Positions 23,757-50,977 of a stretch of 64,000 nt of DNA are shown here, in pieces. The position numbers and the translations under genes were made by a program. Each line of letters begins with the position of its first letter. Positions within the stretch are counted from its first letter, which is position 1. Below the pieces are notes generated by a model. That model had not been told where the DNA came from, ran no database searches, and saw only the letters and a list, made by a program, of their open reading frames with translations. Source of the DNA: Maricaulis maris (GTDB lineage Bacteria; Pseudomonadota; Alphaproteobacteria; Caulobacterales; Maricaulaceae); assembly GCF_003634045.1 (NCBI RefSeq), contig NZ_RBIM01000001.1:434001-498000 (forward strand), written 5' to 3'.

Positions 23757-23869
23757 GCTGGCGGCTTAGCGCCTGTTTTCCGTTTTCTGGGGAAGATTCC
23801 GAATTTCCCATTCGATGTGCCGGCCTCCGGTTGAACTCGTCGCGAACTGAGCGCCGCGCGCGCAATGAG

Positions 23870-23999
23870 CCATAAACCGCTTGTCAGCCAGCAGGCCGTA
23901 TCCGTTTCTTCAGCTCAAGGGTGAAACCGCGCAGCGGCCGCCCTGCGGCCCTTGACCTGAAGAAACGGATACGGCGGTCTCTCGGCAAGCGGTCTATGG
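23870..23999. repeat. Nested double-stem element, copy A
   Basis: An outer 14-bp stem (23870-23883 with 23986-23999, one mismatch), 10-11 unpaired bases on each side, an inner 27-bp stem (23895-23921 with 23949-23975, a single C-C mismatch) and a 27-base loop. GC-rich pairing extends further out (23851-23864 with 24007-24020). The same architecture recurs at 47406-47538 and 50770-50900 with different stem sequences. It lies in the 407-base gap after the M23 gene; no protein gene fits here. Confidence 0.85.
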
Positions 24000-24163
24000 G
24001 TGGGTATGCGCCGGCGGCGCTGACGCTTTGGGGTACCATTGTGTCTGCTGCGGGTTTTCAGCGCCGTAAAACGGTGTGTGTCCCTATCAACTGGATCGGG
24101 AAACGGATGGACTCCCGCCCACACCCTGTGGACAATCCTGTCAGCGCCTCGGGAGACAGAGTG

Positions 24164-47339: not shown

Positions 47340-47405
47340 TGTTTGGGGCGGTCGTGATGGCCGCCCCATTCTCGTTCGAAAACGGGCAGCCCGCCTGCCC
47401 AAGCA

Positions 47406-47538
47406 TCCATTGTTGGCTTGCCGAGATCAGGCCCAGGCAGGTTCAGCGCGTCAAGGGCCAAGGGCCGCTTCGCGGCGGCAAAGCCGCCCTTGACGCGCTG
47501 AACCTGCCTGGGCAAACGGCTGACAAGCCAAGAATGAA
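47406..47538. repeat. Nested double-stem element, copy C
   Basis: An outer 15-bp stem (47406-47420 with 47524-47538, two mismatches), ten unpaired bases on each side (CCGAGATCAG and AAACGGCTGA), a perfect 28-bp inner stem (47431-47458 with 47486-47513) and a 27-base loop with its own GCCGC-TTC-GCGGC hairpin. It lies between the convergent clpB and arsenite permease genes. The architecture matches copies A and B, but the stem sequences differ. Confidence 0.87.
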
Positions 47539-47592
47539 TATCTCTCCGCGAGGCGCGGACGTTTCCGATGGCGATTCCGGTTCGCCCGCCCC

Positions 47593-48666
47593 CTACCGCC
47601 CCGCAAACCAGCCCTGCGTCCGGTTGGCAAAGGCCACCAGGGACAGCATCACCGGCACTTCCACCAGCACCCCGACCACGGTCGCCAGCGCGGCGCCGGA
47701 ATTCAGGCCGAACAGGCTGATGGCGACCGCGACGGCCAGCTCGAAGAAGTTCGAGGTGCCGATCATGGCGCAGGGGGCGGCGATGTTGAACGGGGTCTTC
47801 CACAGCCAGGCGGCGCCATAGGCAATGGCGAAAATGCCGTAGGACTGGATCAGGAGCGGCACCGCGATGATGGCGATGGTGATGGGCTGGGTCAGGATGG
47901 TCTCGCCCTGGAAGCCGAACAGGATGATCACCGTGCCGATCAGGCCGATGATCGAGGCCGGTTTGATCAGCGCCGTGAAATCACCGACGGCCTTGTCGGC
48001 ACCCGCGGCGGACTTGCCGCGCGACAATGCCTTGCGGGTCAGCCAGCCGGCGATCAGCGGGATGACGACATACAAGCCGACCGACAGCAGGAGCGTGTCC
48101 CACGGGACGGTGATATCGGTCACGCCGAGCAGCAGGGCGACGATCGGGGCAAAGGCGACGACCATGATGAGGTCATTCGCGGCGACCTGGACCAGGGTGT
48201 AATTGGCGTCGCCCTTGGTCAGCTGCGACCACACGAAAACCATGGCCGTGCACGGTGCGGCGCCGAGGATGATGACGCCGGCCAGGTATTGCTGGGCGTC
48301 CTCGGGCTGCAGCCAGGGGGCGAAGACATGCTCGAAGAACAACACGCCCAGAAGCGCCATCGAGAAGGGCTTGACCAGCCAGTTGACGACCAGGGTGATG
48401 ATCAGCCCCTTGGGCCGTTCGCCAACATGGGTCAGCGAGCCGAAATCGATCTGGATCATCATCGGCCAGACCATGGCCCAGATCAGCACTGCAATGGCGA
48501 GATTGACCGAGGCGTATTCAAGCCCGGCGAGCCAGGCAAAGGCGCCGGGCATGATCACGCCGAGGGCGATACCCGCCGCCATGCCCATGCCGACCCAGAC
48601 CGACAGCCATTTTTCGAAAAAGCCGATCCCGCCCGGGGCGGCGTCCTGTACGGTGGTGTCGGTCAT
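47593..48666 (-). CDS. ACR3 family arsenite efflux permease
   Basis: A 357-residue inner membrane protein with about ten helices that exports arsenite. The conserved Cys used for As(III) transport is in [34 protein letters not shown] and [18 protein letters not shown] are ACR3 family blocks, distinguishing it from the unrelated ArsB. It overlaps arsC by four bases (ATGA), forming an arsenate-detoxification pair. Confidence 0.93.
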
Positions 48667-49154
48667 GCGGGTGTGTCCTGTCGGGCGGCGAGAGTATCAA
48701 AAGCGCGTTTGAGCGCGTCGCGATCATCGCCGTCAAGTGCGGCCATCAAGGCGGTGATGCGGGCGTCCAGCGTGTTGAACGTGTCATGGAAGGCTTTTCG
48801 GGCGGCCTCGGCATCGGCAATGGCAGCCGGGTCGGGCAGGCCCCAATGGGTCTTGACCGGGGCACCGGGCCAGACCGGGCAGACTTCCGCCGCGGCGCTG
48901 TCGCAGACCGTGATGACGGCATCGAGGACCGGCGCGTCCGCCGCGGAAAACACGTCCCAGCTTTTCGAGCTATAGCCGGTGGCGGGCAGGCCGTGGGCGG
49001 CGAGGGTCTCAAGGGCGAGGGGATTGGGTGTGCCGGTCGGTGCCGAGCCGGCGGAGTATCCCGCCACCCGGCCTTGGCCACGGGCATTGATCAGGGCTTC
49101 GCCCAGGATGGAGCGCGCGGAATTGCCCGTGCACAGAACCAGGATGTTGAGCAT
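48663..49154 (-). CDS. arsC: Arsenate reductase (low-molecular-weight phosphatase type)
   Basis: A 163-residue reductase of the LMW protein tyrosine phosphatase fold. The P-loop is [10 protein letters not shown] with the nucleophilic Cys near residue 8. [18 protein letters not shown] supplies the second Cys region and GLPDPAAI the catalytic Asp-Pro. It reduces arsenate to arsenite for export by ACR3, encoded downstream in the same unit. No ArsR repressor gene is seen next to the pair. Confidence 0.92.
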
Positions 49155-50535: not shown

Positions 50536-50769
50536 GCGTATTTCCTAGTTTCGACGCGTCTCGGATCAGCGAATGGCTAACAAGCCGGACGGCTTGGCAA
50601 TAGCGAGATCAGACGCGTCGCAATCCCGCTTGGCGTCCATGACGGGCGGCGATCGCGGCCGGCTCGGGACAGATACCGTTGTCCCGGTGCACTGACCATT
50701 CGCCTCCCGAGGCGGGGCTGGCTTGGGGAGGAAACAGGTGACGTTACCGCGCCCGCGGCGCACGCTCGG

Positions 50770-50900
50770 CCATAAATCACTTGCCGAGAGAAAGCCGTAA
50801 CCGGTTCTTGAGCTCAAGGGGCATGCCCGCGGAGCGGCGCCTGCGGCGCCCTTGACCTCAAGAACCGGTTACGGCCCGATGGCTGCCAAGTGATCTATGG
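50770..50900. repeat. Nested double-stem element, copy B
   Basis: An outer 14-bp stem (50770-50783 with 50887-50900, one mismatch), 10-11 unpaired bases on each side, an inner 27-bp stem (50794-50820 with 50849-50875, one C-C mismatch) and a 28-base loop. Compared with copy A, the inner stem differs at three left-arm positions, and each has the matching change on the right arm. It lies in the 505-base gap between the DUF1579-like and M23 genes; the rest of that gap holds smaller hairpins only. Confidence 0.87.
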
Positions 50901-50977
50901 ACGACCGCGCGCGTGGCGCGCGAAAATGAAGGCCTGTCACCGCTTGTTTGCACTGACAGCCGATCACCCACTCCGTC

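Follow-up and report, generated by a model that had tools for sequence, protein, structure and literature searches.

Covariation between the arms of a stem is usually counted as strong evidence for a selected RNA structure, and the question raised by this locus is whether that reading holds for three nested hairpins in a 64-kb window, the whole stretch of Maricaulis DNA that was analysed, or whether the matching of their arms is a DNA effect. We consider it likely that the hairpins are copies of a dispersed, non-coding intergenic DNA element of the MITE or REP kind, whose arms are kept matched by template switching, and that they are not an RNA gene. Three nested double-stem structures had been reported in a preliminary description of the window, and a reading of the letters together with an inverted-repeat scan confirms them at 23870-23999 (copy A), 47406-47538 (copy B) and 50770-50900 (copy C). 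Their parts are as follows:

23851..23863, no strand assigned: GC mini-hairpin on the low-coordinate side of copy A, read from the letters
23870..23999, minus strand (assigned from the CCGAGA gap): body of copy A with outer stem, gaps, inner stem (23895-23921 / 23949-23975), tip and loop, from the covariance-model match C1:457871-457999:- and the inverted-repeat scan
24008..24020, no strand assigned: GC mini-hairpin on the high-coordinate side of copy A, read from the letters
47384..47400, no strand assigned: left GC mini-hairpin of copy B, read from the letters
47406..47538, plus strand: body of copy B with a perfect inner stem of 28 bp (47431-47458 / 47486-47513), from a covariance-model match and the inverted-repeat scan
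47547..47559, no strand assigned: right GC mini-hairpin of copy B, read from the letters
50749..50761, no strand assigned: left GC mini-hairpin of copy C, read from the letters
50770..50900, plus strand: body of copy C with inner stem (50794-50820 / 50849-50875), from a covariance-model match, folding and the inverted-repeat scan
50907..50921, no strand assigned: right GC mini-hairpin of copy C, read from the letters

The inner stems of the three copies rank first to third in the inverted-repeat list for the whole window, with 27-28 bp, 96-100% complementarity and 27-28 nt between the arms; the next-ranked inverted repeat has 19 nt and is 89% complementary. Each inner stem is composed of 19 bp, one junction position and the tip TCAAGGG/CCCTTGA, whose two heptamers are 27-29 nt apart, and unpaired gaps of about 10-11 nt separate it from outer arms that are paired at 13 of 15 positions in every copy. 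Copy C, the only one that was folded, lies 8.1 s.d. below shuffled sequences with RNA parameters and 7.8 s.d. below them with DNA parameters. Three compensated differences in the inner stem, which had been placed between copies A and B, do exist but lie between A (23870) and C (50770), and the largely different, perfectly paired stem that had been attributed to C is in fact that of copy B (47406). The latter differs from copy A at 10 of 19 stem pairs, all of which are Watson-Crick, and is unlike all other compared rows from outside its site. At the junction next to the tip there is an unpaired G-G in A (read from the CCGAGA side), an unpaired C-C in C and a G-C pair in B.

These three copies are part of a large family. 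In the window's own genome (G000; the other G-numbers denote compared genomes), a tip pattern found 21 places, and a first alignment and covariance model was made from 22 of the 24 copies in fetched loci, two N-holding copies being left out. The covariance-model search of G000 then gave at least 55 places, scoring 90-155 bits when the better orientation is taken, together with two short hairpin-deleted forms, a count that is a lower bound because 150 of 3701 candidates were scored. Across the genus, 17 of 19 genomes have matches (15 of 16 among good assemblies), with none to about 55 copies per genome; a lack of further copies, which the preliminary description had itself listed among its refutations, is thereby excluded. 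No match was obtained in G004 (rated 100% complete, about 30 contigs) or in G022 (65% complete). A strict pattern matched 17 stretches in named genome records, all of them from Maricaulis, and the single-contig genomes G021 and G010 hold 42 full-length and 3 short places and 25 and 2 places, respectively. The comparisons below use a set of 109 rows (53 of the 55 G000 places, 29 of the 42 full-length G021 places and 27 from other loci of relatives, with one row repeating a G021 copy) and an alignment of 103 rows, which represents 97 places, six of them read on both strands.

The repeat unit is longer than the nested stems themselves. In 78 aligned copies, conservation extends from about 45 nt before to about 45 nt after the inner hairpin and then drops to the background level, giving a unit of about 175 bp with a GC mini-hairpin outside each outer arm. 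A mini-hairpin of at least 4 bp is found in 88% (left) and 83% (right) of these copies; in shuffles the figures are 37% and 42%, and in the farther flank they are 29% and 33%. These windows were set after the consensus had been read, the first windows having been placed too far out and having given no excess.

How the stems change in place can be read from orthologous sites. At 17 orthologous pairs of G000 and G021, comprising 323 stem pairs, 291 pairs are the same, 21 carry double Watson-Crick changes, nine are changed in a single arm and two differ otherwise. The gaps at the same sites differ at 7.8% of positions, and by our own arithmetic, arms changing independently at that rate would be expected to show fewer than one double change and about 46 single changes. 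One of the pairs (C7:96867 / G021:992579) may represent different insertions; it contributes 8 double and 3 single changes, and without it the totals fall to 13 and 6. Some orthologous copies are halves or have mismatched stems and have decayed without any repair of pairing.

The alternative to which we give the most weight, unlikely as we judge it, is that selection maintains the DNA hairpin or cruciform as a protein binding or recombination site, by analogy with attC sites and the ends of IS200/IS605 elements. In its favour, gap motifs and a recurrent tip accompany freely variable stems, the inner stem is poor in wobble pairs (see below), and the tip, along with the nested plan in two cases (f3 and f4), recurs in other families of the order. 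However, selection acting on independent point mutations should leave many single-arm intermediates, and there are 9 against 21 double changes; moreover, a range from none to about 55 copies within one genus argues against a fixed host role, and some of the copies are broken. Against our own reading, the gaps are hardly more conserved between copies than the stems, with a mean pairwise difference of 0.314 in the left gap and 0.210 in the right gap and of 0.319 and 0.316 in the inner arms (107 rows, the two N-holding rows of the 109 being dropped), and the very low difference in the tip is built in, as the search pattern required the tip. It is the motif cores of the gaps and the tip, and only these, that argue for a conserved target in the hairpin repeats, and selection on them is possible.

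A different route to joint change would be the existence of repeat subfamilies with conversion between copies, in which whole hairpins are replaced and both arms change without any copying from arm to arm. At several of the double-change sites the stem is indeed identical (0 mismatches) to that of another copy in the same genome, and conversion between copies could give the double changes at such sites with common stems. As a general account we find it rather improbable, since two sites, C2:99064 and site B (C1:481451), have private stems, to which no compared copy comes nearer than seven mismatches (the donor search covered the compared rows and not every G021 or G010 copy), and these sites nevertheless show one and five compensated changes, respectively, and zero single-arm changes. 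Site B, with its private stem, also has opposite tips in two species. In addition, the 107 rows contain 58 different left arms, and 86 of these rows pair without a mismatch; they include 20 of the 23 whose arm departs from the consensus at 8 or more of the 19 positions.

Template switching between arms, the reading that we favour, also predicts changes in the tip. Among the rows, the junction is C-C in 48 and G-C in 25 of those with F tips and G-G in 28 and G-C in five of those with R tips, so that the junction bases track tip orientation without exception in 106 decided rows (3 of the 109 are undecided), which indicates that the tip inverts as one block of about 43 nt. Opposite tips are present at the same site in different species: at site A, G026 differs from G000, G010, G021 and G023, and at site B, G010 differs from G021. 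Flips are claimed for sites A and B only, as three scripted flips in the 17 pairs were dropped (two for undecided rows and one for a different loop). The inner hairpin can also be lost altogether; it is missing from one G000 element and one G021 element with the same breakpoint at CCG repeats and from another G000 element with a different breakpoint, and half-elements also occur.

The genomic setting bears on the possibility of an RNA. All 79 classified copies are intergenic, and one more lies at the edge of a fetched stretch; genes were called with our own codon-score script, which left some gene gaps of more than 1 kb and thus missed genes. Counting orthologous sites of both G000 and G021, 27 of the 79 copies have convergent neighbours compared with 43 of 247 G021 intergenic regions of at least 180 bp (p 0.003), and 13 of 79 have divergent neighbours compared with 78 of the 247 (p 0.009). 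Relative to tandem genes, 23 copies have the same and 16 the opposite orientation (p 0.34).

Pairing in the inner stem is nearly complete. In the 19-bp stem, the 109 rows give 2034 Watson-Crick, 7 G-T, 8 A-C and 21 other pairs out of 2070, and without the doubled element (108 rows) the Watson-Crick pairs number 2015 and the other classes are again 7, 8 and 21. For 24 tRNAs of the same DNA (511 pairs), the corresponding figures are 486 Watson-Crick and 25 G-T pairs and no A-C pair, this last zero possibly reflecting the pairing rules by which the program draws tRNAs. Under selection for RNA pairing, G-U should build up over A-C, and the lack of a wobble excess in the inner stem therefore points to a DNA effect. 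The outer stem, whose arms lie farther apart than the inner ones, is less well matched, with 1254 Watson-Crick pairs out of 1484 compared with 2034 out of 2070; it has 55 A-C and 34 G-T pairs among the 1484 (two-sided p 0.03; best-fitting offset, 106 of 109 rows), and as A-C corresponds to G-U on the opposite strand, this excess is a weak hint that could be used for the RNA view.

The covariation is nonetheless strong. Pairing reaches 99.1% in helix 2 of the alignment with 103 rows; 489 of 4009 cells are double changes, and the covariation score of 0.364 (0.094 in shuffles) was equalled in none of 500 shuffles. The proposal of selection on structure, whether as RNA or as a DNA cruciform, had been built on covarying stems together with conserved unpaired sequence; the covariation itself stands well beyond shuffles and a DNA cruciform is compatible with it, but selection does not follow from it alone. 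Conversion between the arms of an inverted repeat, which the preliminary description had itself named as the alternative, fits better, given the absence of an inner wobble excess, the joint changes, the tip inversion and the decay without repair. We therefore read the covariation as a DNA effect on the basis of the wobble counts, the joint changes that occur in place, the turning tip block, the poorer matching of the outer stem and the loss of inner hairpins.

A structured RNA kept by base-pairing selection, be it a small RNA, an mRNA stabiliser or a terminator, is accordingly hard to uphold, and we give it a low probability. It would account for the very strong pairing and covariation, for the recurrence of gap motifs and tip, for the outer-stem A-C pairs and for the preference for convergent regions, as might be expected of a terminator or a 3'-end RNA element. 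What it leaves unexplained are 7 G-T against 8 A-C pairs in the inner stem, compared with 25 G-T among 511 tRNA pairs, the lack of a clear orientation relative to tandem genes, a tip that occurs in both orientations and the half or mismatched orthologous copies; Rfam, furthermore, matched nothing in the window at gathering score, nor anything around copy C when E values up to 1 were allowed.

For the preferred explanation, we propose that the repeat DNA would extrude as a nested hairpin and that a DNA polymerase may then switch template inside the extruded hairpin, copying one arm from the other. An intramolecular switch would homogenise the arms, while an intermolecular switch may also invert the tip and loop. 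The copies may have spread as mobile or formerly mobile DNA, possibly with the help of a putative trans-acting enzyme that recognises the tip or the gap motifs, two steps that we put forward with less confidence. Published work attributes to template switching between inverted-repeat arms both the homogenisation of the arms and the inversion of the spacer (PMC8604942), and such switching has been held responsible for multibase compensatory changes in RNA genes and for inverted loops there (PMC8794818). Since arm homogenisation and spacer inversion are its published signs, and the Maricaulis repeats show both of them in place, we read them as a template-switch footprint. The cases described there are single loci in yeast genes or RNA-gene hairpins, whereas the Maricaulis repeats exist in more than 100 copies, form sets of orthologues in several species and combine a 27-bp stem with an inverting tip of about 43 nt. 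With many copies in several species and with both shared and private stems, the family provides a replicated data set on which bacterial template switching can be measured, and it could help to calibrate covariation tests as a natural counter-example in which abundant covariation goes together with tip inversions and no inner wobble excess.

Known repeat families share some of these features. REPINs are short extragenic palindromic repeats that form inverted pairs, are predicted to fold into a hairpin and have many copies (PMC3116915), and REP sequences have a palindrome tagged at one end with GTAG or CGTC (PMC3733652). The Maricaulis repeats are likewise short, extragenic, palindromic, abundant and hairpin-forming, but their long and variable inner stem stays perfectly paired, and a GTAG/CGTC tag at a fixed place is absent from their consensus; among the 109 rows, GTAG lies within 30 nt of the foot of the outer stem in 2 on the left side and 1 on the right side, and CGTC does so in 18 and 17, counts that are given without a chance level. 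Mobilisation by a RAYT, as for REP sequences, was considered and rejected, as the distribution of Y1 transposase matches across the genus does not follow copy number: PF01797 matches are found in five of 19 genus genomes (G012, G010, G003, G005 and G009, with two in G010) and are absent from the copy-rich genomes G000, G021, G023, G026 and G006. Like MITEs, the Maricaulis repeats are small, non-coding, intergenic and variable in copy number. They have an outer stem and a mini-hairpin at each end, and no clean empty site was read. A scan for half-elements, which covered 1.275 Mb of G021 together with the stretches of G000 that had been fetched, gave orphan halves and hairpin-deleted forms only and revealed no parent transposon whose ends match those of the repeats. 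A search of plasmids with copy C and a search of viral contigs with the strict Maricaulis-specific pattern gave no match. In what was accessible of the literature on Maricaulis repeats, CIR, REPIN and quasipalindromes, which included few subscription papers, we found no earlier account of the family, though one may exist. Among intergenic palindromic repeats, the Maricaulis family is unusual in its nested plan and in the clarity with which it appears to record template switching.

Mobility is suggested by the copy number and by sites that are occupied in some genomes and unoccupied in others, rather than by clean insertions. Site B is filled in G000, G021 and G010 and absent in G026 and G023, and site C is absent in G023 along with about 1.1 kb around it and is represented by a half in G010. 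The sites compared with G021 and other genomes were found filled, occupied by a half, decayed or rearranged, and none was a clean empty site showing a target duplication. Many of the repeat sites are common to several species, so that they do not document recent movement.

Some observations on the flanks may be added. A palindrome of the GGGACA...TGTCCC type is present in the empty site B of G026 and G023, and motifs of this type are found in 26 of 160 element flanks (100 nt) compared with 66 of 979 element-free intergenic tiles (p 0.0002). At sites A and B, the sequence adjoining the element varies among species (G021, G010, G026, G023 and G006), which had prompted the idea, since set aside, of a cassette. 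In G006, clpB is followed by what we would guess from reading to be a small toxin-antitoxin pair, and an element-like flank is present where the contig ends.

Weaker relatives of the repeat are probably present elsewhere in the order, to which Caulobacter also belongs. Of 200 genomes sampled from the order, 42, in 11 of 41 genera, were matched by a second model (103 rows); 11 of the 42 lie inside and 31 outside the genus, and the best outside score is 72 bits (E 9.6e-14); as matches near 40 bits may represent any long hairpin, we rely on the relatives whose letters were read. A TCAAGG...CCTTGA tip was read in four other families (f2-f5) and in another genus of the same family, its constancy being partly built in because model and pattern favour it, and the stems of these relatives are unrelated in sequence and matched at 15-20 of 20 positions. 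The nested plan is present in f3 and f4, with both C-C and G-G junctions in f3, and in f2, f5 and one f1 relative (G134) a second hairpin is often found beside the first. Kinship with the Maricaulis repeats is likely for the f3 and f4 relatives and possible for the others (f2, f5 and the other genus). In a survey with the tip pattern, G000 had 50 matches compared with 0 for the backward pattern, and 384 other genomes had 0-3 matches, but 10, 8, 5 and 5 in four of them; as four of the 384 belong to the order, we make no claim for a spread beyond it.

We are doubtful, though not dismissive, of a bolder extension, in which these would be order-wide mobile DNA hairpins of a hitherto undescribed class, with a TCAAGG tip read by a putative enzyme and a second arm synthesised from the first in each round of movement. 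Such resynthesis would keep the stems perfect while their sequence drifts and their tips flip and flop, a logic comparable to that of parvovirus ends, which undergo hairpin transfer and exist in flip and flop forms. If it were true that the tip is the target of an enzyme, the order would harbour a dispersed hairpin element of a new kind.

CIR (Caulobacter CcrM-associated intergenic) repeats, described as alphaproteobacterial intergenic sequences of about 110 bp with two inverted repeats joined by a linker (PMC2229807, PMC10969869), resemble the Maricaulis repeats in being intergenic, alphaproteobacterial and built of inverted repeats, and hairpins lying side by side are seen in several of the f2 and f5 relatives, but a descent of the family as a branch of the CIR repeats of Caulobacter, Brucella and other alphaproteobacteria is improbable, because GANTC, the methylation site that defines CIR repeats and lies at the loop of one of their hairpins, is found in 9 of 109 Maricaulis bodies (absent from 100) and in 0 tips, and the hairpins are nested and not joined by a linker, a distinction drawn from the published description of CIR.

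The copies are unevenly spread within genomes. Several G000 copies are separated by 0.2-4 kb and frequently share their orientation (for example, C7:213246, 215281 and 215489), an observation made without a chance comparison, and 28 of the 42 full-length G021 places are located at 0.48-1.37 Mb and 13 of the 25 in G010 at 1.7-2.1 Mb. A role as a terminus element was rejected, as the GC skew of G021 flips near 1.58 Mb, outside the stretch that holds those 28 places. In the window itself, the neighbours of copy B are an ACR3 gene for arsenite efflux and an ORF with a weaker likeness to arsenate reductase (47593-49154).
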